A stretch of 30,605 bases of DNA, taken from Stentor roeselii. Its lineage: Eukaryota; Ciliophora; Heterotrichea; Heterotrichida; Stentoridae. The notes below the pieces were generated by a model. The model did no database searches. It worked only from the letters and a program-made list of their open reading frames with translations, and was not told the origin of the DNA. The first letter of the stretch is position 1; each line of letters starts with the position of its first letter. Where the stretch lies: the NCBI GenBank assembly GCA_006503475.1, contig RSEH01000382.1, forward strand, positions 1-30,605. The letters are read 5' to 3'. This document shows positions 5,118-30,605 of this stretch, one piece after another. Made by a program: the position numbers and the translations under genes.

Positions 5118-6572
5118 ATGGGAAGCATCTGTTCTACTTCACTACAGTCAAATATCGCAGACAAATCACCTAAATCATTAGCTCCAGTAGCTCCGATTTC
5201 CATGAAGTCCCTTCCTTCATACCGTCCATTCCTTTCAAAAAACCGTTCTCAATTTTCAGACACATACGAATTGGAATCCAGAAAAATCGGTTTTGGCTAC
5301 TACGGGGATGTGAAAAAGTGCACACACAAAGAGACAGGAATAGTTCGAGCCGTGAAGATCTTAAATCGCGAAAGAACAGGAAGTCACATTCTGCGAGAAG
5401 ACTGGTTCCTGAAACAACTGGAAATAATAAGTCAAATCGACCACCCGTGCTTTATCCGAGCCCACGAGTACTTCGAAGACCGGGACTACTTCTACCTCGT
5501 GATGGACTATCACAAGGAAGGAGACCTCATGCAAAAAATTCGGTCAAACAAGAAGTGCACTGAAGATTACTGTAAAAAAGTAATGAAAAAATTACTTATA
5601 GGTATTTCTTATCTTCATCAACAGCAGATCGCACATCGAGACTTGAAACCTGAAAACGTTTTGATCAGTGACCGAAACGGCGAAGTTCTTGTAAAAATCA
5701 TTGACTTTGACACTGCTTGTCACTTGAATGAAGGCACAGCGAAAGGCGTTTTCGGAACTGCTCATTACATGCCACCTGAAATGCTTTTAGGTGACTACAA
5801 CGAAAAGTGTGACCTCTGGTCACTGGGCATCGTCATGTTCAACATGCTGACGGGACTCATGCCTTTTTCAGGACTCAGCGACCATCAAATCATTTCCAAC
5901 ATCCAGAAGCTGCAGGTGAACCTTTCAGGTCCTGAGCTTTTCCTCTTGTCTCCGGAGTGCAAAGGTCTTCTGTCCAAACTTCTTCAAAAAGACCCGAAAA
6001 GAAGGATTTCAGCTCAAGAAGCCCTGAGAGACCCTTGGTTCAGTTTAGCAGATCCTCGCGAAAGCGCGTTGAAAGCAGAGAAAATTTTAACTGAAATCGA
6101 AAAATCAAAGGTGAAGAATGTGAAAGTTAAGGAACTGCTAATCAGCAACTTTTCGATCATCAAGGACTTCGAAGACTTGGACCTGGTCTTTCTTGAGTTG
6201 GACTCTGACAATGATGGCCTTATTTCTGTGGAGGACTTCGAGAGAATGTTCTCGAAAATCCACAGCGAAGCCGAAGCTCATTCAAAAACTGAAGAGCTGC
6301 TTGGAGGACTTAAGGGAATTTTCGAAGAACTTATCACATATGAGGACTTTTTGAACTCCACTATCAACTTGAGGAACATTTTAGATGATAAAAGAATTTC
6401 AAGGTTTTTAGATAAGCGCAAAAAGTTGGCGAATGACAGAAATGCTGAAGTTGGTTTCGATTGCGATGAAAGTTTTGAGCTTTTTATGGACTTGAAAGAA
6501 AAAATCGACCAGGATATCACTCCCTGTGACTTGAGAGGAGCCATGCTTGATACACTATTTGTTAATTTCTAA
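5118..6572 (+). CDS. Calcium-dependent protein kinase-like Ser/Thr kinase, lipid-anchored, DFD variant
   Basis: 484 residues. The N-terminus MGSICSTS fits myristoylation at Gly2 with palmitoylation at Cys5, so the kinase is probably membrane-attached. Kinase domain about residues 54-308: glycine loop GFGYYG (58-63), ATP-binding Lys80 (AVKIL), catalytic loop HRDLKPEN (173-180), metal motif DFD at 196-198 in place of the usual DFG, PPE at 219-221 in place of APE. The domain order matches the CDPK/CaMK group of plants and protists. Behind it lies one canonical EF-hand loop, DSDNDGLISVED (362-373), within a helical region. Other EF-hands are degenerate or absent, whereas typical CDPKs have four. 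Conserved Lys80, Asp175 and Asp196 suggest an active enzyme. TATAAAT (5111-5117) directly abuts the ATG. The next gene starts 27 nt after its stop. Confidence 0.93.
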   Translation: MGSICSTSLQSNIADKSPKSLAPVAPISMKSLPSYRPFLSKNRSQFSDTYELESRKIGFGYYGDVKKCTHKETGIVRAVKILNRERTGSHILREDWFLKQLEIISQIDHPCFIRAHEYFEDRDYFYLVMDYHKEGDLMQKIRSNKKCTEDYCKKVMKKLLIGISYLHQQQIAHRDLKPENVLISDRNGEVLVKIIDFDTACHLNEGTAKGVFGTAHYMPPEMLLGDYNEKCDLWSLGIVMFNMLTGLMPFSGLSDHQIISNIQKLQVNLSGPELFLLSPECKGLLSKLLQKDPKRRISAQEALRDPWFSLADPRESALKAEKILTEIEKSKVKNVKVKELLISNFSIIKDFEDLDLVFLELDSDNDGLISVEDFERMFSKIHSEAEAHSKTEELLGGLKGIFEELITYEDFLNSTINLRNILDDKRISRFLDKRKKLANDRNAEVGFDCDESFELFMDLKEKIDQDITPCDLRGAMLDTLFVNF

Positions 6573-13236: not shown

Positions 13237-16200
13237 ATGCTGGTAATACTTATCATCCTAATCGAGTGCTCCTCAGATTCATTAGATTCAGAAACCATTC
13301 CAAAATCAGGAGCTCCTCCAAATGCCATGATAAATTCAGCAGCGATCTTCCATAAGAAGTCAAATAAGATCTACACCATAGGAGGCTTCGAAATCGAATC
13401 AAACATTCGAACAGTCGATATAAACTCCTTTGACCTCACCCGAAGAATTTGGGAAAAGGTAGAAACGAGCTCATCATACAAGCCTTCTGCTTTTCTCTCC
13501 CACTTCGCTTATATCTCGTCTAACGACCAAATCCTAATCTTCTCAAATTACTTCGAAGTCTTTAAATTCGACTTGCAGGGTCAAGGCTGGAGTGTCGACT
13601 ACCTTAAAGGTGATTTAATAAAACCTAAAAAAGGTTTCGCTTTCACAACTTTTAACTTTAAAGGAAAAGAATATGCTGCGATTTTTGGAGGAATTCAAGA
13701 CAATAGACTCAGCGATAATTTTCACTTGTAAGGATTAGGCAGGATTGATTTGGAAACTTTAGTGACTCGGTTAATACCTTGTTCTAGTGGTTGTCCCTAT
13801 CCTCAGCACTATGGTTTGATGAATTTTTATGAGGACTCGATTTATCTTTATTCAAGTATCAAGGAATACTGGTTCGGTAATGATGAGGTTTTTTATAAGT
13901 TTGATCTTCAAATGGAGACATGGCAAGTCTTGAGTCCTGCATTGACCAGGCCTAGTTATAAAGCTTTAAGGTATTCATGCATCTATCAAGGTGAATTTTA
14001 TCTTTTTTTTGGGTTTAATAGAACAGCTGTTTTTTTTTCAAATGAAATTTATAAGTATAATATCAAGAATCAGTCCTGGGCTTTGATATCTAATGAAACT
14101 GGAGAAGGGTTTGTCTATGGATCATTCGTGCAAGCAGATAATATTGCTTACTTTCTCTACGGTCGTAACTCAACAAACATTAAAAACTCTTTAATGTCAA
14201 TAGACCTGAGCACTATGCCCTTAAAGAAAGTAATCATTACAGATGACTGGGTGAATCCAAGTGCCAGAAAGTTTCACTGCGGCAATGTTATCAATACAAA
14301 CATGATAATTTTCGCTGGCATGACTGAAACTATTGATGGAAAAGTCGAGTATTTCAATGACATGTGGAAGTTCGACCTTCTACAACATTCCTGGAGATAT
14401 GTGACCCCTCTCGGAGAAATTCCTGAAAAAAGAGCTCTTTTTGGCTGTTCAAAGACCAAAGGAAGCATATTCGCTGTATTTGGGGGAAAAGGGAAAGATT
14501 CAATATTAGATGATCTTTTTATATATTATGACCTTCAAGAAATGTGGTATCAGATAACCCCTGATGGTACCCAAAGACCTTCTAAACGATACTCATCATG
14601 CTTGACATACGATAACGACACTTTATTCATAATTGGAGGGAGAAATGATATTTCTGCATTTAACGATATCTGGACTTACAATTTTATCACAAATTCATTC
14701 TCCTCTTTTAAAAATCACTTCAATTATGAAGGACTGTTTAACACGAACTGTTGGGTAGAAAAGGTGGGAAATTCAAGTGTGCTCTTTATAATAGGAGGTG
14801 AAAATATCAAACAAGTGCCGAACAAGTTGATACTACAATGCATTGTCGGCAACCAATCATGTCAAGCGGACCCTTTTGGATTAATTCACGAGCTTTTGGT
14901 GATTGGCTCAGAAACTTCAGTGATCGTGAGCGACTCACTTATAATCAGGCACGGTGGAACACTTTATCAATGGATGATAATGGCAAACCTTATAATTTAC
15001 GACAGGGCAACAAAAAGTTTTTTCCCCTACGATGTAGAATCTTTTGCAGGCCATTCACTAGTTTTCTTCAACAAGTCTTTATATGTCTTCGGGGGAGTGA
15101 AACCTGAGCAAAACTTTTACTCTTATTATACTCTTAACAAAGAAGTAAAGAAAATAGACTTGTCACATTTACCTATAATTAAATGTAGTCCAGGCACTTC
15201 CGGAGAAAAATGCTCTCCTTGTGGACTAGGAACATACTGGAATGATGGTAATTGCAATCCTTGCCCAGCAGGTAAATTTAGCAATTATCTGGCGTCAACA
15301 AGTGCCGAACAATGCATTTCATGCAAACAAGGATTTTTCTCTAAAAAAAACGGGTCACATGATTGTCTCGAGTGTCCTTCAGGGTTCTTCTGCCCGATTG
15401 GATCATCGCGTCCAAGACTTGAAATCAGCAGAGTAACTGAGCAGTCAATTCAACCTTCTGAATATCAAGACCGTCAAGGGTTCATCTCAAATATTTCCAG
15501 TTCTTTTTGGTTTATTTCCTTGGGACTCAGTTTGCTTTCTTTAGCCTTGTTGTTGGTCTTTATCAGGTTGAAGACTTGCATTACAAGTTTCGACCTGTTT
15601 GAAGCGCAACACAGTAACAACCTCGGAGTTCCTGTTGTTTACAGAAAAACATCTCTTGGAGGATTGTTTTCGATTATTTTCTTTTTAACTTGTGGAACTA
15701 CGGTGGTGGTGGCGCTTCTTGAGTTTTTTATGAATAATATTTCAGAAAATAGAGCCTTGGTGCCTATTGTCACTCTTGATAGTCTGGTAAAAGCCTCGTT
15801 TTTTGAAGTTTCTGCCACTTTTTATATCTACGGAGGTGAATGTGAAAATAGCTCAAAAAAAAATACTTGCACTGAATCATTAAAAATCACTCATGAAGGT
15901 CTTAAGTTCAGCAAAGTCAGTTTTAAGTGCTTTGATCTTCTTCAAGACTGTAAAATCGTTGCGAGATTTGAAAACCTTTACCTTAATGCGAAAGAAGTTG
16001 AAATTCAGTTAATTTTAGAAGATTCATCAAGTTATGCACAGTCAATTAGTTTGAATTTGACTTCTTCTTCATCAATTCCTTCAAAAATAAGCAGCGTGAC
16101 CAAGACCGTCAAGCCACTTCTTGACAACCAGGTCTTTAAAGGTCCAGACCCTTCAATATTTTACTTTAAAGCTACTCCTTCAGTCAGTTTTAATTAGGTT

Positions 16201-16662
16201 TTTCAAAGCCAGTCAAGTAAATGGCCAAGTGAAGAGACCGGCTTTCACATCACTGAATCAAAAAATGCTAAGCCTGGCTCAGTCTCAACTCATGAAACGT
16301 GAAAATTATTTAGACTGGATTTAAAATATAGACTCTTACTTTCTGTTATTATTACTGAAAGTGACACTGCTATGATCACCAAAAGACTTATCAAACAAAC
16401 TAGACTTTTTTTCATTGGGTCACTGCTTGGATCGGTTTTTGGATTGTTTGGAACTTTTGCGGCGTTTTTAGGATTTACTGAAAATTTGTCGGAAGTTTAT
16501 GAAAAAAGGAAAAACTCGAGGGCGAAAGTTAGGGATGTTAATATGAAAATTAGGAAAATCAAGAGTCAGGTTCATAAGAATAGGAATATGTCTGAAACAG
16601 AAATGAATCAGAATAAGTTTACTACTATTGATAGGATTGAATCGATCGTGATTTACAAGTAA
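13237..16662 (+). CDS. Kelch-repeat, Cys-rich (GCC2/GCC3-like) membrane protein, four exons
   Basis: Exons 13237-13727, 13743-16182, 16198-16298 and 16314-16662 give 1126 residues, with TAA at 16660-16662. All three introns are 15 nt. The N-terminus is a signal peptide (MLVILIILIECSS). Kelch-type repeats fill about residues 30-600, seen as recurring I-F-G-G/I-I-G-G-R and W-x(6)-P motifs with F-N-D-I/M-W; they should form a beta-propeller outside the cell or in a vesicle lumen. A Cys-rich segment follows (about 645-720: CSPGTSGEKCSPCGLGTY and similar), like GCC2/GCC3 or ephrin-receptor-like repeats. Three membrane helices lie at about 747-770, 800-825 and 1040-1065, with a further folded region between the last two, then a basic tail. 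This architecture occurs in large ciliate surface proteins; ligand and role are unknown. Without splicing, the third helix would be lost. Confidence 0.88.
13728..13742 (+). other. 15-nt intron 1 of the Kelch gene
   Basis: GTAAGGATTAGGCAG. It carries an in-frame TAA; its removal joins ...DNFHL to IDLETL in frame. Confidence 0.88.
16183..16197 (+). other. 15-nt intron 2 of the Kelch gene (GTC start)
   Basis: GTCAGTTTTAATTAG. It removes an in-frame TAG and continues the protein as ...ATPS-VFQSQSSKWPSEETG. The 5' end GTC departs from the more usual GTA. No other 15- or 16-nt GT...AG choice removes the stop. Confidence 0.75.
16299..16313 (+). other. 15-nt intron 3 of the Kelch gene
   Basis: GTGAAAATTATTTAG, phase 2 (inside an ACA codon). 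It removes an in-frame TGA and joins ...VSTHET to LDLKYRLLLSV, leading into the final membrane helix. Confidence 0.85.
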
Positions 16663-17169
16663 TCATTATTAAATGAATAGATAGTTGATTTAGATTATTT
16701 GATTGTGAGTAAAAAAGAAAAAAATAGATAAATTTTTGTTGCAGATTTATAAATGTTAAGATAAATTGCCATGAAATTTCAATTTTTTAGAAGTATTCGA
16801 AGATGGTCCTGAATATATGATTTGAATGAATTATAGTTAAATAGTTTATTATTTAGGAAATTTTCTAGCCAAATAGAAGCCTCTGAGGCTATTTCTAATC
16901 AAGAATCATGGAAAATTCGTAAATAAGTATTTATATATTTGAAGATTTTTTGGTGTTTTATTTATCTTTTACTTTATTTGCATGATTATGTCTTTTTCTT
17001 GAAATTTTAGCAAAAATAAAGTTTTACCTAAATAATTTAATCATTTCAGGTATTTTCAATAAGTGAAATAAATTAGCATTGATCTCTATAATATCAATAG
17101 TCTAATCAATGGATTAGACTATAACATTAATCCTAATATGTGTAAAATGTGATTAAAATATAAAATTAA
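16663..17169. other. A/T-rich intergenic region between convergent genes
   Basis: 507 nt holding the 3' ends of the Kelch gene (plus) and the WD40 gene (minus). No ORF of note. It contains an imperfect hairpin around 16873-16896 (GCCTC-T-GAGGC core) and a perfect one at 17097-17122. Confidence 0.6.
17097..17122. repeat. Perfect inverted repeat, 11-bp arms, 4-nt loop
   Basis: ATAGTCTAATC at 17097-17107, loop AATG, GATTAGACTAT at 17112-17122. It lies about 50 nt beyond the stop codon of the WD40 gene and between two convergent genes. A role in 3'-end formation is possible but not shown. Confidence 0.7.
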
Positions 17170-19191
17170 TTAAATTAAGCCATAGACTAGATCTGATAAA
17201 ATAAAATAATTTTCATGAAATAAAACTTCTTTTAATTCTCCATTATCATGAAAAAAATCCAAAACATCTGTCTTCGAGCCTTCTTTAATCATTTTTTTTT
17301 CCTGAGTAGAATATAATGAAAAAATAATTTGCCAATTTTTTACAAAAATATATTCACAAGAAATACTCACAAAAAGCTGAATAGATCCTGCAGTATTTTG
17401 AAATTTTTTCAGTGTTGATAAATTTTCGAGAATATATAAATTTGAGTGTGAATCAATGAAATAAAAATTTTGTCCAGTCTTATCAAAATCGCCTGCTATA
17501 AGTTTGCTATCATGTTTATATAAAATGTGAAATCCTTCTAAATTTATAATTTTCGTATAAATTTTTGATGAAATAACTAGTTTCTTAAAATCATTAGAGC
17601 ATTTAATAAATAAAATCTCAGTACGCTCAAAGTAATATTTTACCTTTACTCTTAATTCAGGAACTGCCATTACATAAACTTCTCCTGTTGATGTTCCACA
17701 AATAATAAAAGAACTTTTGAAAATAATGCTAGTTATTTTGTCAGTACAACGCCATTTCTTCAACTCTTCATTATTTTTCAAGTTAATTAATCTAAGTGAT
17801 TTGCATGCATAAGCAAGCATCATAAATTTCGGAGAAATTGCAATAGAGATATAATGTTTGAATTTTTTTTCTTTTATATATTTTTTATGGATAAAATTAA
17901 TAACAAATATATTTGAACTTTCTGTACAGTAATAAATTCTATTCTGATTCAATTTTGCACAAGTTTGATATATTCCAACACAATCAATAGTTTTTATGGA
18001 TTTACAATTTTGAAGTTCCCAAACTTTTATTGTTGAATCAAGAGAACTTGAAATAAATAATTTGTTGATTTTACAGATATCAACAGAATAAATAGAATTT
18101 GAATGAGCTTGGATAGGCTCAGTAACCGATTCTAAACTTTCTAAGTTTATCAAATAAATTTTACCATTTACTGACCCCATCACAGCTATTCCATGGCCTA
18201 TGCTGCAGCATTCAATTTGATGAGGATTTATTTTGTTGTATTTGTTTTCAAATTTTTTAGTATAATTCAAAGTGTTCCAATCATAATTATAGACTGATCC
18301 GTATATTTCGAAAACAAATACTGAATTTTTAAAAGTACCAGCAAATATCATCATCGAAGAAAAAAAGATAGTTTTTATTATTGACTTATTCGAAATACCC
18401 CAAATTCTTACTTGAAAATCATTCGATGTTGTTATAAAGTATTCAGAATTGTTACAAATCTGCAGAGTAAGTACGTAAGTGTTGTGATCTTCTATTGAAA
18501 ATTTCAATTTCCTTTTTTTGATATTTATGTAACAAATTTTATTATCTTGTGAACAAGAAAGGCAAAACGTAGAAGTTTTATCTATTTCCAATATTCTTAC
18601 AATTGTTTTATGCACACAAAAAGATTTTAAATGAGTCATATTTCGAGCTTTCCAGAGTCTTACAACAGAATTTTCTCCACTCATTAGAAATTTACGATCA
18701 GTCGAAAGAGAGATTGAATTGAAAGGCCCTGAATGAGAAGTGAGAAAATGCTTGAAATTCTTTGTTATAGTTTTTTTTTTATGTAAATATTTTGATACTT
18801 GTTTTATAGATGATTCCAAAAATTTATTTTTAACAAATCTGCTCAAAGTCCCTAAATTTTTCAAATTTTCGATAAATTCTTCTGACTGATATTTTATTGA
18901 AAGATTTTTTTCTTTTAGCTGAAGTCTTTCGTGCTTTTTCAAGAATAAGGCTCTTTTCAAAGTTTTTGTTAATATATCTATGCTTACTTTAGAAGAGTTG
19001 TTGATAAGCTCTTTTTTTAGTTCTTTTGATTGTTTGATTATTTTACTTTTTGAGAGCTGCTGAAGAACCAGCTTATTTCTTTTGTTTTGAATTTTTTGAA
19101 CTTTCAGTACGTGAGTTAGCGATGTTTTTTTTATGTGTTGTTGAAGCATATGCAGAGGTATTAGTTGTATTTGGCAAGTGCAAGAATACAT
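17170..19191 (-). CDS. WD40-repeat beta-propeller protein with N-terminal Cys/His motif
   Basis: 673 residues, ATG at 19191. The N-terminus (MYSCTCQIQLIPLHMLQQHI) has a C-x-C...H pattern resembling part of a zinc finger. A basic helical segment follows (about 25-145). From about residue 150 to 650 come WD40-type repeats, recognised by endings such as VVRLWKARN, VRIWGISN, IKVWELQNC and by S-x-D spacing (FISSSLDSTIKVW). The length allows two propellers or one large one. WD40 proteins are scaffolds for complexes; no catalytic domain is seen. The closest relative is its neighbour at 19930-21992, which aligns over the whole length. Codon use is much more A/T-rich than in the kinases and CDC48, which suggests low expression or rapid evolution. 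Two palindromes lie just upstream (19207-19248). Confidence 0.9.
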   Translation of the reverse strand: MYSCTCQIQLIPLHMLQQHIKKTSLTHVLKVQKIQNKRNKLVLQQLSKSKIIKQSKELKKELINNSSKVSIDILTKTLKRALFLKKHERLQLKEKNLSIKYQSEEFIENLKNLGTLSRFVKNKFLESSIKQVSKYLHKKKTITKNFKHFLTSHSGPFNSISLSTDRKFLMSGENSVVRLWKARNMTHLKSFCVHKTIVRILEIDKTSTFCLSCSQDNKICYINIKKRKLKFSIEDHNTYVLTLQICNNSEYFITTSNDFQVRIWGISNKSIIKTIFFSSMMIFAGTFKNSVFVFEIYGSVYNYDWNTLNYTKKFENKYNKINPHQIECCSIGHGIAVMGSVNGKIYLINLESLESVTEPIQAHSNSIYSVDICKINKLFISSSLDSTIKVWELQNCKSIKTIDCVGIYQTCAKLNQNRIYYCTESSNIFVINFIHKKYIKEKKFKHYISIAISPKFMMLAYACKSLRLINLKNNEELKKWRCTDKITSIIFKSSFIICGTSTGEVYVMAVPELRVKVKYYFERTEILFIKCSNDFKKLVISSKIYTKIINLEGFHILYKHDSKLIAGDFDKTGQNFYFIDSHSNLYILENLSTLKKFQNTAGSIQLFVSISCEYIFVKNWQIIFSLYSTQEKKMIKEGSKTDVLDFFHDNGELKEVLFHENYFILSDLVYGLI

Positions 19192-19929
19192 TTAATAATT
19201 ATATTACTAAAATATTTTAGTTATCAATACCTTGAAAATATTTTCAAGCGAATAAAGGTAAGACTATTAATTTTAAGTTTTATTTCAAAATATTCGATAA
19301 TAAAGTGATTAGAGATTGATTTACTTAATCCTTGCTGTAATTAGTTTGAATTCAAGAAGATAAACTTGTTCAAAGATTTTCTCTAGTTTAATTTATCGAA
19401 TGTTAACATGGAATATCTAAGAACATCTTAAAAACTCTGAGACTTTTCTAAATGAGAGAAATTTCAAATTTTTCAACTTAATCGAGGATTCAAACTTTAA
19501 ATTCTTAGGGACGTGATACTGAGAACAGAAAATCAGAGTTAAGCACTCAGGAAATTTCCTTTTATATAAAGATTGAAAAATTACGAAATTATGTCATTTT
19601 TGAATTAAACTTAAAGGAGTCAGAATTTTTGAATAAAAGAATGATTTAGATTTTTAAATAGACATTTATTTCAAGTTTGGATGGTAATATACTCTCAATA
19701 CTCTTCTACTATTAATAAACTTTTTTGAGATCACCAACACTCAATAAGATTTATCATAAGGTGTCTAATCATCTATTTCAATCTTTATTAGATAATATCA
19801 TTAAGATCAATATCTATTTTAAGTTCTCAACTTCTTGAGAATAAGAAAATATAAACTTTATCTCAACATATAAAAATAAGATACCTTAGTATTCGAAACA
19901 TTATAGTAATTATTAGAGATATAATTAAA
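19192..19929. other. A/T-rich spacer between the WD40 paralogues, with two palindromes
   Basis: 738 nt without a credible gene. Just upstream of the intact WD40 gene lie perfect palindromes CTAAAATATTTTAG (19207-19220) and CTTGAAAATATTTTCAAG (19231-19248). The rest shows nothing recognised. Confidence 0.6.
19207..19248. promoter_or_regulatory. Two palindromes with AAAATATTTT cores upstream of the WD40 gene
   Basis: A 14-bp palindrome at 19207-19220 and an 18-bp one at 19231-19248 share the core AAAATATTTT, with centres 26 bp apart. They lie 16-57 nt upstream of the start codon at 19191. Possible binding sites for a dimeric factor, or chance in A/T-rich DNA. Confidence 0.35.
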
Positions 19930-21992
19930 CTAATAAATAATAAAACCATATTCAAGAGCTGATAATACTAATGATTTTTGATCGAATAATATATTCTTTC
20001 TAAAATTAATATATTCGATTTCTAAGGCTCTTAATCTCTCTTTAGATATATTCAGAACTTCATGCTTTGAAACATTTTCCATTATTAATTTTCCTTGGGT
20101 GGAAAACAATGAAAATTCTAGTTTAGCATTTTTTATCAGAATATAATTGTTCTTAACATTCAAATATAACTGCATAGGTCTCATGATAAATGTTAATTTT
20201 TTCAAATTATTTAAATTTTCCAAGACACAAATATTTGAATCATAATCACTGAAATAGAAATTTTTACTTTCCTTATCAAATTTACCGGTAATCAGTTCTA
20301 ATTTCTCAGTATATATACACTCAAATGTTTCTAAATTGACAATTGAAAATTTTTCTGATAAATAAGCTAAAGTTTTGAAATCATTAGAGCATGTAATAAA
20401 ACGAATCTTATATTCACTTAAGTAGTATGTTCTTTTTAATTTCAACTGAGGAACCTTTAAAACAGCAACTTTTCCCGAAGATGTTCCACATAAAATAAAA
20501 GAATTTTTAAAAGAAAGACTAGTAATTTTGTTGAGAGAACTAGCCCATCTATTTAACACTGTATTAGTTTTCATGCAAATGATTCTTAGAGATTTACATC
20601 CATGAGCAAGAAGCATTAATCTCGCTGAAACTGCGATGCAACCATGCATGTAATGTTTGAATTTATTTTTTACTAAACTTTCAATCCTCCAGTTAAAAAT
20701 AGAAATTTTTGAATCCTCTGAACAAGAATAAATATGTCTTTTATTGAGTCTTACACTATTTTGCATATGTCCAAAATTTTTGAATTCTTTTAATAGTGAA
20801 TAAGTTTCAATATTCCATAATTTTATTGTTTTATCTCCAGAACTTGATACAAATATTTTGGTGAATTTGCAAATATCAACTGAAGTAATTGCTTCTAAAT
20901 GAGCTTCAATAGGACTTTCCAAGAAATTTAGGGTATTTAAATCGATTACTTGAATCAATCCTTCCATTGACCCCATCACAACTTTTCCAAAACCTAAGCA
21001 AAAACTTTCGAAAATATTATTTTTGCTTCTATATTCTTTTATAATACATTTCGATGAGAGCCAGTCATATTTAAAAACTTTTCCATATAAGTCACACATT
21101 ATCAATGCTTTATGATTATCAAAAGTATCAGAAAATATTACTTTTGTTAAATTTGAATACTTGTATATTATTGATTTCGTTAAAATATTCCAAATTTTTA
21201 CTTCGATAATTGATGTTGATATAAAGTTTTTAGAATCATTGCAAAATGCTAAGAATGTTATATTATCGTTTTTATTTTTTAGTGAAAATTTTAACTTCTT
21301 CTTTTTAAGGTTTAGGCAGCATATCTTACCATCAAATGAACTTGAAAGACATAAAGTTGAAGAATTATCTATTTCAACGATTTTATGCATGAATGATGAG
21401 CTATAAACGATTTTAAATGGTTTAGGGTTTTTGCGTCCCATAATCTTAAAACACAAGTTTCTCCAGTTATCAGAAATTTCAAATCACGTGAAACAGCGAT
21501 TGACATAAAAGTTCCTGAATGATATTTGATGAAACGATTAAAATTTATCATCAAAGTTTTCTTTTTATCAAAAAAAAAATGAAACTAATTTGACTGAAGA
21601 GCCAAGTAAATTATTCCTCATTATTCTACTAAATGAAAAAATTTCTGAATTTCTCAGTGGATATATTAAGTTTTCAGTGTTGTCATTAGATGATAAATTT
21701 TCTTGATTATTTAAAAATGTTTTTTGTATATTTTTTAGTTTTTTGATTGGTTTGATCGTTTATTTGTTATTTCTAGACTTACTTTTAAAGAACTTCTGAA
21801 ACTTTCTGCTTGAAGTTTTTTGAGTTCTTTTAGCTTTTTTTGGGTTGATACTATTTGATTGTTGCGTAATTCAGTCTCATTAGAAATTTTAAAGAATCGC
21901 AGCAAGTGACTTGAGGAAAAATTATTTTCTGATATATGGGCTCTCAAATTTTCCAAGGGAATGATTTGAAAATCGCAAGAACAAGTATACAT
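19930..21992 (-). pseudogene. Tandem WD40 paralogue disrupted by three single-base indels
   Basis: It aligns with the intact WD40 gene next door from start to end. The ATG at 21992 begins MYTCSCDFQIIPL, matching MYSCTCQIQLIPL. Three indels move the frame. An extra base near 21757-21768 follows ...SLEITNK. An A10 run (T10 on the coding strand) at 21570-21579 has one base too many between ...VKLVSFF and DKKKT. One G is missing from TTGGAAATAG at 21369-21377, between HLKSFIAHHS and EIDNSS. The last 1,440 nt (to TAA at 19930) are open, about 480 codons with recognisable WD endings (VKIWNILT, IKLWNIET). Either it was inactivated recently, or the indels are assembly errors and the gene is intact; the homopolymer case is the most suspect. 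The start context resembles that of the intact copy. Confidence 0.8.
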
Positions 21993-23393
21993 CTTATAAT
22001 AATTATATTTAGATTTTATATATAGCAGCTTAGAGTTTTTGCTCAATTTAGTGCGCATTCATCTTGTTTCAATACTGATTTCTTTAGAAAATTTAAAGTG
22101 TCTTAGTGTCCTAAGAAATATAGACAAATTTATTCGATATCACAGTTCAAGAAGGTCTAATATTATTTTAGATTTTTGTTTTTGAATAACTGATTGAATG
22201 TCAATTTAAGAAACTATGGATAGACTATTATTTGGTTTCTTTTCGAATGAACTTTATGAATTATATGCAAAGTGTAAAATTTGATTGAAAATTCAATAGA
22301 ATATCTAGTTTAATTGTTATTGAAGTATGAAGGGAGAATATACTTTTGAAACAATTCATAAGAGTATTTGCTTAAGTAATTACTGTTAATAAAGTTTCTT
22401 GTGGATTTTTATCTTTAGGAATAGTGTTATGCAAAATTGGATTTAACGTAAAACTTATACTAAACTCTGACCTTATATTCATGTCTATATATGGCTCATT
22501 ATAACTTCATTAGATAATAATAAAAAAGTTCTATTCTCTATCCCTATTCCTAGTATAAGTTTATTTCTACAGAGTGGTCAGTTGAAGCTTAAGAGCTTGT
22601 TGCAAAGCCTATCACCTTCAAGAAATTCTCAATAGATATTATCTATAAAACTAAAGTTATAGATCGATTTTATAATCTAGCTACTAAAAAAAATTATATA
22701 TTATTTTATACAATATTAATAGCCCATCCTACTGACTTATCATGTTCAGCTTACCAGACTGTTGAATCTATTAGAATAACATGTACTTTATAATGTTGAA
22801 ACTCAAGATATAGAATAAAGACTTAGTTTAAGATGATACTCAAATCAGATGTTTATTAATTTTAAAGGATCAGGTACTGATATTATTTATGAATTTAGTT
22901 ATTTAATCAAAGTGTTAAAACTTTATGATTAGATTCATAGAAGTTATTAATATTCCTCGAAGTGCCATACGATATTATAATAATGAAAACAATAAGCTCA
23001 ACAGAATATTCTACTAAAATTACAAAATTTAATAACCTAAGGACAAAACTACAAAGGCTCCTTCACCACTCAATACAAATCCCTTAACTACCAACTAATA
23101 TCCAAGACAAGCAATTCTTTTTTAAATGTCTCAAAGAAATTATAAATCATATAAAACTTACAAAATCATTCATCAATCATTATAAACAAATCTTTCCAAG
23201 AACAATAAATTAACAGCACCCAAAACCCACCTAAACCTCCTAAACCCTTAAAACTCTTAAAATCCCCCCCAAATCAACCGTCTAAAACAAAAATCCCGTA
23301 TTCCTCATAAAATCCTTTCATCACTTAATTCCTCACAAAACGCTTCCAACATTACCTTAAAGCATTTTTAACTCTTTAACAAAAAAAATATTA
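21993..23393. other. 1.4-kb spacer without recognised genes, A/C-rich at the right end
   Basis: No ORF with protein-like character was found on either strand. From about 22990 to 23390 the plus strand is strongly depleted in G and rich in A and C (including a C run near 23267-23273). This merges with the A/C-rich 5' end of the next gene and is likely its upstream region. Confidence 0.55.
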
Positions 23394-24833
23394 ATGGGAA
23401 ACCATTCATCAAGTAAAAAGAAGCCAAATTCCCAAAACCATCAAATTTCAACTCGTCGAAAGTTCGGATCAGAGACATCCTACCTAGAAAAATACATGAT
23501 TTTTCCCCCGCAGTCCTCAGACCTAACAAATATCCTAAAAAAAGAAACTCAAAATCATCGCAAGTCAGTCTCTTTGACCCTCAATCAACATCCCGACAAA
23601 TTAACCGACTTTGACGAGCTAGAAGACCATCCTCAAGAAGAATTCAAATTAAACTCTCCATCATTTGACCTCGACAAAGACTTTACATCGAGAAACCATC
23701 TAAAGTACTCAAATAGAAAAAAACTCATCGAAAATCGGAAAAAATTTCTCAGTTCTTCACGAAAATATCTGGGAACGGAAAGATTACCGGATTTAACTCG
23801 CGTGGTTTCTTTTGACTTCGGAGAGGAAAAAGAATGTCGTTCAGTAGAAAGAAATGAATTTCGTAGATTGAATACTTCTAAAAAAAAAAAATCACGAAGA
23901 ACAATCGTTTCTTATGATCTGGAAAAAATCAACTTCAAAAATGAGGTCTTGAAAGTAACTGAAAAAGAAGCATTACTTTTATTCTCAGTTCCTTTTCATA
24001 AAAGACTTATTCATGTTATTGACTATCATTTACGAGTCACTAAAGTGAAAAATTTTGTGAGTTTTTATAAGTCTTTTGATGAGAATGAAAGGAAATTAAT
24101 GAAAAAACAGTGTTTTTTTGCTGATTTACTTCAAACTTTTCCTACAAGATGGAAAAAAGCAAAGGTTCCTTATTTTATTGATAATTCCTTGCTTTTTATC
24201 AAAAGTCACACAAGTTTAAGCATCTACAACGTGATTCAACAGGCGATTAAAGAGTTCGAAGTAAGAACCTGCATTAAATTTGTATCATTTGTTGAAAGTA
24301 AGCATTCCGATTTTCTTTATTTTGAATCAGGAAATACGAATTCAGCTTTAATAGGAAAAATTAAAGGAAAAAACTTGGTCACTGTAAAGAAAACTGCTGA
24401 AAAAGAAGATGTCTTGCATTTGATTATGCATTGTTTAGGTTTTATGCATGTTCATAAGAAGGGAAACGATGAAGAGTTTCTTTATCTTTCTGCTGAGCAG
24501 GTAAATGACAAGAGCTTTATTGATGATAAAGATTCTCACTTTTGCATATATGGACTCAAATATGCACATTTTGATTCGGACTCGGTTTTGATGAAGAAAA
24601 GTTGTCAAAATATGATTTCTTATCATAATTTTGAATTTGAAGAGAGAGGGTTGTCGGAAATGGATGTTTTTAAAGTCAACTTTTACTATGATAATGAAAA
24701 CTTCGGTAAAAGTGAAGAAGAATTAAAAATTATTATGCAAGAATTTAATAAAGACTATTTGAATGAATCAATGAATGAAAACTCGATAAGTAGTTCAGAG
24801 AGTAATCTCGATTATTTATATTCATTTAAATAA
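23394..24833 (+). CDS. Astacin-like (M12A) domain protein lacking the catalytic Glu, N-myristoylation motif
   Basis: 479 residues, ATG at 23394, TAA at 24831-24833. The C-terminal half fits the astacin metalloprotease pattern: RWKKAKVPYFID (252-263; astacins have R-W-x(4)-I-P-Y), AIKEFEVRTCIKF (284-296), DFLYFESG (306-313), and HLIMHCLGFMH (342-352) in place of H-E-x-x-H-x-x-G-F-x-H. The three zinc histidines (342, 346, 352) and Gly349 are kept, but the catalytic Glu is Leu343. A Met-turn-like NMISYHNFEF (406-415) and a closing LSEMDVFKVNFYY (420-432) also fit. Astacins are normally secreted. Here there is no signal peptide; instead MGNHSSSKKK suits N-myristoylation with a basic patch, followed by about 200 residues of Ser/Lys-rich linker. 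I infer a cytosolic, membrane-bound, catalytically inactive zinc-fold protein, perhaps a binding module. Confidence 0.85.
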   Translation: MGNHSSSKKKPNSQNHQISTRRKFGSETSYLEKYMIFPPQSSDLTNILKKETQNHRKSVSLTLNQHPDKLTDFDELEDHPQEEFKLNSPSFDLDKDFTSRNHLKYSNRKKLIENRKKFLSSSRKYLGTERLPDLTRVVSFDFGEEKECRSVERNEFRRLNTSKKKKSRRTIVSYDLEKINFKNEVLKVTEKEALLLFSVPFHKRLIHVIDYHLRVTKVKNFVSFYKSFDENERKLMKKQCFFADLLQTFPTRWKKAKVPYFIDNSLLFIKSHTSLSIYNVIQQAIKEFEVRTCIKFVSFVESKHSDFLYFESGNTNSALIGKIKGKNLVTVKKTAEKEDVLHLIMHCLGFMHVHKKGNDEEFLYLSAEQVNDKSFIDDKDSHFCIYGLKYAHFDSDSVLMKKSCQNMISYHNFEFEERGLSEMDVFKVNFYYDNENFGKSEEELKIIMQEFNKDYLNESMNENSISSSESNLDYLYSFK

Positions 24834-26349
24834 TATTTTTACTTTGCATAGTGAATTTTGTCACAAATTATTTAATTATCATATGTTGAAACAGATTGAG
24901 GAGCCAAAAATTTTAAATTTTGATTGTTTGACTTAGATTCGGTAAATATTATAATTTTACTATGGTTGTTTAATATTTATTACAAATCAGTAATTTTTCT
25001 AATATTTTATTATCATACTATGATTATATTCCTAGTTCTTGCCAAGTGCACTGAAATTATTGCACAATTCACTAAACCATACTTTTATATATTCCAGTTA
25101 GTCTATAAGGGTAAATTTTAGGATAAAAATATTATAGTTAAATGCTATTTTTATAAAAAGTATACGTATTTCTATAATAAATATCTATCATCTTTTTCTC
25201 TATACTTTTCTATTGCAAATTAGGTAATTCAAAGGCCTCTAATATTTATTTTTTTTCTATAAAAATTGTGATTTTGAAAAAATGTGGTGCACAACATTTG
25301 AAAATCGATTAATTTTCATTTTTTTTTATTAAATATGATTTTATTCAATAATAAGTTATAAATTTTTTGGATTCTTTCCTAATGATTTGAATATCTACTT
25401 TTTACTAATAAAAGATTAACCTTTAAGGTGATTAAGTGGATTAGAAAACATCAATTATAATAATAATATGATTTATTGTAAAAACATAATTTCTTAGCTA
25501 GATGTCAGAAAATCTAAAATGATGTAACTTTAAAACTTTATTTTTACTCTTTAATTAATATTAGAGAGTATTAAGTAAGGATAATTTAAGGTTTGTTGAT
25601 CATAATGTTGTTAGAAGAGTTACTTTTATATGGCATTTATTGGGCCAAGAAAATTATTGAAATATCGATTCTCTTACCAAAAAAGATGATTCAATTTATT
25701 ATAGAGGTGATAATTAAGACATCACATATATATACCCTTTTGGATTATATCACTATTCTAAAATTTAAAAACATCTCTATACTAAACCTACTTTTTTGTC
25801 ATGCATTTCAATAGGAAGGACAGTTAAGTGGTACCCAGTGAAAAAAAACATTATTATATAACATGTTTTACTAACAACATCTCTATCCTCAAAGTTACAT
25901 ATATTTAAATTGATCAACACTAAACTTAAGTCCTTCTGAATTTTAATTCTCTTCAATACTAAATAATTTCCTCATAGTTACCCAAACCATGTATTATGAA
26001 ATCTTGTACTTTTTCAATATGCTGTGAGCCTTTCAGCTTTACTTCAAAGAAAGGTTCGAATTTATTTAAAATATTCAACTCACTAACTCTATCTAAAAAA
26101 ATCCTTCAAATAACTCAAATTTCTCCCAAAAAAAAAAATTAATTCTTTTAAAAATCTTCTTAAGCTCTTTTCCTTTCCCTAACAATAAAATCATCCTTCT
26201 TCAGAAAACCTTCCAAAAAATTCAAAATTCTCTGATAAGGTATTTTCATATACATTTATCATACAATATATTATTGAATAAATCTATCAGAAATGATGTA
26301 AATTCACTAAAAAATATGCAAATGCTCAGAAAAAACAGTGGCTATAAAT
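24834..26349. other. 1.5-kb A/T-rich spacer
   Basis: Contains only short A/T-driven ORFs of low complexity (24924-25121 and 25593-25814), which I do not accept as genes. From about 25850 to 26230 the plus strand is G-poor, as upstream of other genes here. TATAAAT at 26343-26349 directly precedes the next ATG. Confidence 0.55.
26343..26349 (+). promoter_or_regulatory. TATAAAT directly abutting the ATG at 26350
   Basis: Same TATAAAT-ATG junction as at 5111-5117. It supports the ATG at 26350 over an upstream in-frame GTG at 26338. Confidence 0.4.
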
Positions 26350-26565
26350 ATGGGCTGTGGATTAGCAAAGACAAACTATAAAATTCAAAGATCAACTGCG
26401 ATTGAAATTCTTGACAAGACTGAAGCGGAAAAGTTGGAAGGAGTCTCGATGGTCGAATGTGAGATTGAAGGAAGGAAGACAAAAATTTACTATAAAAGAC
26501 TTTATTCTAAAGTCATGACAAATTCAAAAAAACTAAAGACGAGAGGTATCTTTAATTTAACTTGA
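26350..26565 (+). CDS. Small protein with dual-acylation motif (MGCGLAK)
   Basis: 71 residues, ATG at 26350, TGA at 26563-26565. The N-terminus MGCGLAKTNYK suits myristoylation at Gly2 and palmitoylation at Cys3, as in Src-family kinases and G-alpha subunits, so the protein should sit on the inner face of a membrane. The rest is charged and probably partly helical (IEILDKTEAEKLEGVSMVECEIEGRKTKIYYKRLYSK). No domain recognised. MVECEIEGRKTKIYYKRL might form a beta hairpin. It may be a peripheral membrane adaptor, or the first exon of a larger gene, although I found no 15-nt intron that extends it. Confidence 0.6.
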   Translation: MGCGLAKTNYKIQRSTAIEILDKTEAEKLEGVSMVECEIEGRKTKIYYKRLYSKVMTNSKKLKTRGIFNLT

Positions 26566-27444
26566 TTAATAAATTTGCTTGTTAAGAGGAGATTTCTGAA
26601 TAGAATCTGATTTTTTAGTCTTTTTTCATGTTAGAAGCTTTCGAGGAAGAGAATTGTGAAAATGGAGCAAGGTGAGTTATTATCGAAATTTATAATTATC
26701 AGAACCATTTTTATCGATAGTTTCAGAAGTTTAGAAGGATGTAAAAGTTTCAGCTGAATTCATATATAATTAGAGTAATAGAAAAGAAAAATATTATTGA
26801 ATTTTAAATTTTCGGTCTTTAAAATAACTAAACCTGACATTTTAGATGATTTCGGAAATTATTCGATTTATTCAATTTTGGGCTTGGCATCTAAGCCGAT
26901 CATATTTTTCATGCAAATTTGATTATTTCAAGGTAAAAGAATTTGCTTTAAATATGTTAGAATGACATACAATCGGTAAAATATCAATTTTTATAAATAG
27001 CTATTCTTGGCAAGCCATAAGATATTTTTAGTTTAATCTAGAATCTATGTTTAAATTCTCAACAAATTGAGTAAAAGTTATCAGTAACGAAAACAGAAAT
27101 AATTAACTTCTTCAATTATTTATAAATCATCAGAAATTTTGAAAAATATTTTTCAAGGTATCTGAATTTATATTGATTCCATTTTAATCTGTTTGAAATA
27201 AGTATATTTATAAAAATCTACCAAAAAACCTGAAGTTTCGTTGAGACCTCATCAAAATGCTAATAATAAGGGTTTATTTGAATTATTCCCTCACATGGCC
27301 ACATTTCCCTACAAGAAACTACGAAAAATTTCAATAAAGCCTTCTAAAAAATTTAAAATTCTCAGATATTATCCTCTACTAACAACTAAAATCTTCAATC
27401 TCTTTAAAATCCATTCTTATCTCTACAATTATTAATTATTCACA
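26566..27444. other. Spacer without recognised genes, one 18-bp palindrome
   Basis: 879 nt, G/T-leaning just after the small gene, then A/T-rich. A perfect palindrome TTGAAAAATATTTTTCAA lies at 27139-27156, similar to that at 19231-19248. A 64-codon ORF at 27241-27435 begins with TTG, has no family signature and is not accepted. Confidence 0.5.
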
Positions 27445-28523: not shown

Positions 28524-28931
28524 TTAAACAGCAATAACATCTAAATTACATCCTTGAGGCACAGAACTTCCAACATTTTCATTCAAATCAAGCACTTTGC
28601 CATCAAAAATGAGTAAAATATCAGAAAAATTCATCGCTTCACAAAATTTCATCTTAAGACTCGCAACTTTTTCACTTGCCTGTACCGAGACAGTCGTTTT
28701 CTTCAAGTCAATAGTCCCTCCATGGACAGTGATGACATCCGAGCCATTCGCTTGAATGACTGTAGGAGGAGAGTAAAAGTACTGCGAAGTATTTCCATCT
28801 TTCTTCAAAATATCGACAAAACTCGCTTCATTCATCTCTTCTAACAAGGCCAGGTCTTTACTCTTAGAAGTTTTCGATTTATTTATAGGATGATTGTCTC
28901 CCACCAGTGAAGCCTTGCAACAACTGCCCAT
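28524..28931 (-). CDS. Lipid-anchored ubiquitin-like (UBL) protein
   Basis: 135 residues from ATG at 28931; an in-frame ATG at 28955 is rejected because the later start gives a strong lipidation motif, MGSCCKAS (Gly2 for myristoylation, Cys4 and Cys5 for palmitoylation). Residues about 15-65 are a polar linker. The C-terminal part (about 78-135) reads as a beta-grasp ubiquitin fold: TTVSVQASEKVASLKMKFCEAM, then ILLIFDGKVLDLNENVGSSVPQGCNLDVIAV, matching the ubiquitin order of strand, helix with L-K-x-K, L-x-F-x-G-K-x-L, and a final G-x-x-L-x-V strand. It ends without a Gly-Gly, so it is not a conjugated modifier but a docking domain fixed to a membrane. Divergent from the next gene with only 13 nt between proposed start codons. 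Confidence 0.8.
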   Translation of the reverse strand: MGSCCKASLVGDNHPINKSKTSKSKDLALLEEMNEASFVDILKKDGNTSQYFYSPPTVIQANGSDVITVHGGTIDLKKTTVSVQASEKVASLKMKFCEAMNFSDILLIFDGKVLDLNENVGSSVPQGCNLDVIAV

Positions 28932-28944
28932 AACTTGAATTATT

Positions 28945-29528
28945 ATGGAAAGCATGATGGCCCGGTTGAAGTCAGCAGTCGAATCTCAGAAAGGAAGACA
29001 AAAATCTGCTGGAAGGACTTTTAACATGGAAACTGAAGGTAAAGACTCAGAGTTCATCAAAGTCCAAACGAAAAAAATCATTGATATCCTTCTTCCTGAA
29101 CAGGACCCGCCTGAAAGTAATGAAAAAATAGTCAGTTTGTTTCAGCAGGTCTCAGATGTACTTAAAGTTGTACTTGGTAAAGGAAGGGAAAAGAAAAAAG
29201 AACCGGAAAACTCTAAAAAAGTGGAAGAATTGGAAAATTTAGTTAATGAAAGTGAAAGGGAAAAGGTAGATATAAACAGATTTATTTGAGAAGGCAGAAC
29301 TTGGAACTTAAGAAGAAAAATGAGGAGATGCTGGAAAGGATTGAACAAAATGGAATTTCTCAGGAACTTGTTGCGATGTTGAAGGATTCGCAGGTTAAAC
29401 TTATGGAGGCGAATAGGTTTTTGATTGAAGATTTGAAATTGCTGAAACAGGCACAGGCTGATAAGGACAGGCTTTGGGAATTGGAATTGGAAGATATTAG
29501 GAAAGCGTGTAGTTTGATGAAAAGTTAA
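28945..29528 (+). CDS. Coiled-coil protein, two exons joined by a putative 14-nt intron
   Basis: Exon 1 28945-29265 (107 codons), exon 2 29280-29528, joined as ...SEREK-IYLRRQNLELKKKN, giving 189 residues. The second half (about 90-189) is a strong heptad coiled coil. The first half has a predicted helical segment (KIIDILLPEQDPPESNEKIVSLFQQVSDVLK). The frames of the two halves differ, so the joint needs a length of 2 modulo 3. GTAGATATAAACAG (14 nt) fits best; a single-base indel in the DNA or assembly is the alternative. The ATG at 28945 leaves only 13 nt to the divergent gene; a later in-frame ATG at 29026 is possible. No family recognised. A role in ubiquitin handling is suggested only by neighbours. 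Confidence 0.65.
29266..29279 (+). other. Putative 14-nt intron
   Basis: GTAGATATAAACAG, phase 0. It bridges two halves of a coiled coil in different frames. It is one base shorter than the other introns here, so an indel is an alternative. Confidence 0.4.

Positions 29529-29922: not shown

Positions 29923-30605
<683 letters not shown>

Follow-up and report, generated by a model that had tools for sequence, protein, structure and literature searches.

The open reading frame at positions 23394–24833 on the forward strand of the window, as we call the whole stretch of 30,605 nucleotides that was analysed, encodes a 479-residue protein that is, by its sequence, a genuine member of the astacin family. 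Astacins are known as secreted or cell-surface proteases. Membership in a small conserved family of such proteins makes the window gene look like a true pseudo-enzyme and not like a gene in decay. We regard it as reasonably probable that the protein is a membrane-anchored pseudo-astacin on the inner face of the membrane, serving as a zinc-stabilised binding module that does not cut; the anchoring, the zinc, the membrane and the binding are all features that we infer. The first-pass annotation had proposed an inactive, cytosolic, lipid-anchored astacin. Its core stands, in that the loss of the general base, the Met-Gly (MG) start and the missing leader are all present and are shared by the three closest paralogs of the gene, but the segment that it had assigned to the Met-turn was the wrong one.

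The gene is a single open frame of 490 codons, 479 of which run from the first ATG, GTG or TTG after the stop in the ORF scan, and none of the 11 codons upstream of this point is a start codon. PF01400 is the only Pfam family in the window protein. It matches aa 252–432 (24147–24689; all features of the gene lie on the forward strand) with an E-value of 2.1e-15 and a score of 57.3 bits (cut-off 22.5), covering profile positions 1–186 of 189. The family membership first suggested for the protein is thus borne out by the profile search, above the curated cut-off and over nearly the whole domain. Solved astacins were also found by phmmer with the window protein as query (best E 4.7e-7). When a profile of the window protein and its three closest paralogs was compared with a profile of 106 bacterial astacins (one of the 107 collected was omitted), 174 columns were aligned with a probability of 99.7% and an E-value of 1e-26; the reversed-profile control gave 0.7% and 0.077. 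The Pfam scan found no match to the UBR box (PF02207) in the window protein, a phage origin of the protein was rejected after a PHROGs search without a match, and no RNA family reached its gathering score in the window.

The genome, which comprises 44.4 Mb in 522 contigs with the window as the whole of contig C325, was searched with the Pfam profile and yielded 9 astacin domains in 8 genes, counts that are lower bounds since the searches ignored introns, which could hide exons. The window protein as query recovered the same 8 genes, with further matches at E 0.19 or worse, and two cousin proteins as queries each led back to 7 of these genes, all but C129, and to no new one. The idea that further astacins, secreted and active, had been overlooked was therefore rejected, as the Pfam model, the window protein and the two cousin queries gave nothing beyond these genes. 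The closest paralogs (C212, C129 and C505, named after their contigs), at 27–34% identity, are open reading frames on other contigs. They and the window protein, together the MG proteins, all start with MG, lack a hydrophobic leader, have one disulfide pair replaced and share an SC..MIS motif. Identity among them is 26–34% over the full length, and the astacin domain of the window protein is 40–44% identical to those of its sisters. Ahead of the domain, the conservation is uneven. The Ser/Lys-rich linker (aa 3–165, 23400–23888) belongs to an N-terminal tail that is barely conserved, with identities of 19/152 to C212, 39/160 to C129 and 33/146 to C505. The region that follows it (aa 164–247, 23883–24134) is conserved within the MG clade; its best genome match outside the astacin genes has an E-value of 0.19, and the match of C508a, one of three cousin genes on contig C508, to the window protein starts only from aa 224.

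Eight of the 9 domains have lost the catalytic Glu and 8 keep the three zinc histidines, both features being found together in 7. In a tree built with 30 of the 107 bacterial domains and no animal astacin, these 7 domains form one supported clade (97/89), which is made up of the MG clade (98/92) and the C508 clade (100/97). The genome's own domains group together with 99/95 support, apart from the bacterial ones. The pairing of the window protein with C505 has weak SH support (96/62), and the tree should be read with the partial row of C508c, the long branch of the second C281 domain and the odd letter make-up of C505 in mind. Two changes are enough to explain the loss of Glu on this tree, which fits a loss once on the stem of the seven and once in the second domain of C281.

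Much of the astacin layout described in the first-pass annotation is present in the window protein. The R-W...P entry is seen as R252-W253 and P259, and the closing S-x-x-D as S421 and D424, which occur in all 9 astacin domains of the genome. The zinc motif HLIMHCLGFMHVH (aa 342–354, 24417–24455) keeps the three zinc histidines H342, H346 and H352 together with G349 and F350 in an alignment of the 9 domains with the 107 bacterial ones. The general base Glu of HExxH is replaced by Leu343 (codon TTG), as had been noted. The second Glu of HExxHxxGFxHE, missed in the first reading, is gone as well, its place being taken by Val353. It should be noted that the bacterial set is active-type by construction: Glu and His were fixed by the search pattern, and 107 of 107 at these positions is therefore no independent count. 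The Met-turn, Tyr and Cys columns lie outside the pattern and are therefore informative.

The segment NMISY (aa 406–410, 24609–24623) had been taken as Met-turn-like. This assignment is rejected because the alignment puts the true Met column at Leu399 and the zinc-facing Tyr column at Lys401, both within SVLMKKSC (aa 397–404, 24582–24605), which also contains the conserved Cys404. Met407 of NMISY, a motif of the MG clade, sits 8 residues beyond the Met-turn column, where 52 of the 107 bacterial rows have Ile and 29 have Met. The Met-turn Met is present in 102 of the 107 bacterial astacins and the zinc Tyr in 106. In the phmmer alignment to crayfish astacin (1ast), S-I-M-H-Y of the latter pairs with S-I-L-N-Y of the intact C281 paralog, and our link to the crayfish numbering runs through this alignment and the residue roles as we take them to be. 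To judge from its sequence, the astacin domain of the window protein looks catalytically dead.

The cysteines have changed as well. At the columns of what we take to be the Cys64–Cys84 disulfide of astacin, Cys is found in 76 and 78 of the 107 bacterial astacins, and Asn316 and Ala335 stand in the window protein; all four MG proteins have Asn and Ala there. Cys293 is aligned by phmmer with the first Cys of the presumed Cys42–Cys198 pair, and the window protein has no Cys after 404. Loss of disulfides does not by itself place the protein in the cytosol, because column 316 is also Asn in 16 of the 107 bacterial astacins and Cys293 is kept. A Cys lies 7 residues past the invariant Ser397 in all 7 domains that lack Glu and keep the three His, but in neither C281 domain and in only 9 of 106 bacterial astacins. 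As a lead only, this residue, Cys404, may be a fourth zinc ligand. If so, the domain could hold a structural or regulatory zinc site with four protein ligands, in which Cys404 would occupy the side of the water and the Tyr. We consider this reading unlikely, although it fares best among the alternatives: the bacterial occurrences at the same offset count against it, C212 has both the Cys and the Tyr, and the shared Cys may be a single event, since the 7 domains form one clade.

The conservation of the clade bears on two further alternatives. Across the six full domains that lack Glu and keep the three His (the split C508 gene was left out), 21 of the 201 window residues used are invariant, including all three His, and columns 343, 353 and 401 vary. 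The fold might be kept only as a protein-binding surface, with the His persisting without bound zinc, much as ADAM pseudopeptidases are described as using surface loops or discarding the domain (PMC11266112). The full conservation of the three His over 7 diverged domains, while the adjacent catalytic positions vary, makes this quite improbable. A working protease with an unusual site, in which another residue acts as the base or the sisters with Gln retain weak activity, appears slightly less credible still. All three zinc ligands are kept, and in C212, where the zinc-facing Tyr, the second Glu and the Met of the Met-turn are still present, the main deviation from a normal site lies at the general base. 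However, Leu343 cannot be a base, and the window protein also lacks the Tyr, the Met and the second Glu. Moreover, the Glu position is L in the window protein, Q in each of C212, C129 and C505, and N, I and I in the three C508 genes, a variation unlike catalytic constraint; in C281, it is E in the first domain and L in the second. The first-pass observation of a Leu at this position therefore generalizes as a loss of Glu shared by the MG and C508 genes, but not as a Leu.

Fourfold sites agree at 8/27 to 18/37 (0.30–0.49) between MG proteins. Since this is close to the 0.30–0.34 expected from composition, synonymous sites are near saturation, and the MG genes look old and maintained. Least credible of all is a decaying gene, that is, a duplicated astacin gene whose active site was lost and which now drifts within AT-rich DNA, for although the GC of the region is about 0.25–0.30, the match of the adjoining WD40 copy holds four stops and one C508 cousin has a split frame, the 479 codons are open, three open sisters elsewhere share the Glu loss, the MG start, the three His and the SC..MIS motif, and the domain is still 40–44% identical in spite of the near-saturated synonymous sites. 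Because paralogs share these features, no protein tested has a hydrophobic leader and the frames are open in all but the one frame-split cousin, the case is one of a family rather than of plain decay or misassembly, the outcome against which the first-pass annotation had cautioned.

The surroundings of the pseudo-astacin gene, AT-rich and with a broken WD40 copy next door, count against the favoured reading. GC drops from about 0.31–0.49 to about 0.24–0.30 at 16.5 kb (positions 16500–27000), and positions 17170–21759 hold two WD40 genes, the second being the copy interrupted by stops. At least 66 matches to this WD40 family occur in the genome, and several lie near base 1 of their contigs. The C505 sister also adjoins a WD40 gene, but a shared neighbourhood was rejected because such a neighbour means little with so many family matches in the genome. 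The contig opens (positions 19–1440) within a Cdc48-type ATPase gene, of which it holds the C-terminal part, and the bases at its other end, to position 30605, look by eye like the N-terminal part of a gene of this kind on the same strand. A search of the assembly turned up no other close Cdc48-type copy (best 51%), and the contig may represent a single locus that was assembled in circular permutation. Removal of a 15-nt GT..AG candidate intron (13728–13742) from a kelch gene elsewhere in the window leaves a continuous frame of 982 codons whose only stop comes at its end. TAA, TAG and TGA are all used as apparent stops. The candidate intron and the three stops fit a heterotrich with the standard code. 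A Blepharisma study gives 15 and 16 bp introns and UGA read as Trp in that genus (PMC9942806); tiny introns of Stentor figure there as the title of a cited work.

The N-terminus of the window protein, MGNHSSSKKKP..., holds a predicted N-myristoylation signal and a basic patch (aa 1–30, 23394–23483). The MG start and basic patch reported earlier are confirmed, residues 1–30 containing 6 K/R against 1 D/E, and the N-terminus is not hydrophobic, in keeping with the reported lack of a signal peptide: the maximal 9-residue Kyte–Doolittle mean within the first 40 residues is 0.24, a measure of hydropathy only rather than the output of a trained predictor. By this measure, a hydrophobic leader is absent from all seven proteins tested, with a top mean of 1.16. 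The MG proteins start at the first ATG of their open frames with MGNHSS, MGACIS, MGNCTT and MGQCSC. The myristoylation-type motif, a weak consensus that we take to be PROSITE PS00008, fits all four members of the MG clade but only 1 of 45 other ORFs, of which 3 begin with MG. These control ORFs, of at least 150 aa, come from the window and nine fetched stretches, with overlapping ORFs kept; among them is the front piece of the split C508 gene, a piece without the zinc motif. Cys4 is present in the three sisters and could be palmitoylated, and the window protein has His4 and a basic stretch. The genome contains an N-myristoyltransferase gene (E 8.9e-67). We infer that the window protein would be myristoylated and held on the inner membrane face. 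Two other genes of the window have starts of this kind: a protein kinase with EF-hand-like matches (5118–6572) begins with MGSICSTS, and a small ubiquitin-like protein on the reverse strand (28524–28955), possibly another acyl-anchored protein, has an internal MGSCCKAS start.

The more distant cousins carry different additions. The C281 protein (L010 1904–5836; 1310 aa) combines two astacin domains with two stretches of UBR box (PF02207; 33.8 bits, cut-off 25.2) and has no hydrophobic leader. Its first domain, with the motif HEMMHCLGFSHEH, is the only catalytic-looking one of the 9, though its Met-turn residue is Leu, and its second domain has lost both the Glu and the His triad. The C508 cluster (L011 2701–7841) contains three pseudo-astacin genes with Cys/His-rich tails, one of them split over two frames. 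The second piece of the split gene gives a UBR match of 30.5 bits; PF02207 does not match the two intact C508 proteins at E-values up to 1, but C508a is 36% identical to the split gene across the Cys/His-rich, UBR-matching part. Our full-text search of open-licence papers found none in which an astacin domain and a UBR box occur together.

We thus favour the inner-face binding module and suggest how it might work. This branch of astacins would be intracellular in the ciliate, where the predicted N-terminal myristate and the basic patch would tether the protein to a membrane from the cytosolic side. Its astacin domain no longer has the general base, the Tyr that faces the zinc or the Cys64–Cys84 disulfide, yet it retains the three zinc His and the fold-defining residues, and zinc would give it its shape. 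At the membrane, the zinc-stabilised cleft and surface would then take up a partner, whether a peptide or a protein, in or around the former cleft, and the domain would act as a scaffold or compete with the active cousin. A bolder scenario, which we rate as a long shot, is that a heterotrich-type ciliate moved its astacins inside the cell, where an acyl-anchored branch might carry a His3-Cys binding site and the dead domain of a sister branch became fused to UBR-like zinc fingers, the clefts and the UBR boxes reading or guarding protein N-termini. A conserved astacin branch without leader and base and with a predicted acyl anchor would put the fold to a new use and offer a natural test of what a metzincin zinc site does when nothing is catalysed. 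What had appeared as a single odd protein is one member of a maintained pseudo-metallopeptidase family of astacin type.

Among the matches listed in the open-licence full-text literature, no ciliate astacin pseudoprotease was apparent from the title or the start of the abstract. The 2024 review of metallopeptidase pseudoenzymes highlights M12 ADAM proteins and M14 carboxypeptidases, and the word astacin occurs in it once and M12A never (PMC11266112). Of the bacterial astacins, which have the same domain, all 107 were recovered by the profile of the ciliate domains. LegP (NCBIfam NF045530), a named zinc-dependent protease, scores best among the NCBIfam models in each of the five proteins scanned, but the window protein reaches 53.1 bits against a cut-off of 300 and is not a member. 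The UBR box of the N-recognins (PF02207) is shared, above the cut-off, by C281 and the split C508 gene, whereas the window gene lacks it. With the astacins of subfamily M12A (PF01400), including 1ast, the meprins and BMP1/tolloid, the window protein shares a profile match over nearly the whole domain, the three zinc His, the Gly-Phe pair, the Ser before the Met-turn and the S-x-x-D end; unlike them, it lacks the catalytic Glu, the Met-turn Met, the zinc Tyr, Cys64/Cys84 and a hydrophobic leader and has an MG start. A parallel is offered by the ADAM pseudopeptidases (M12B), which are likewise metzincin domains without the Glu, some retaining the His, as in HQLGH of ADAM7 and HHLGH of ADAM29 (PMC11266112, Table 2). 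However, these are transmembrane proteins of another subfamily with extracellular domains, whereas the window protein is predicted to be lipid-anchored on the inner face of the membrane.
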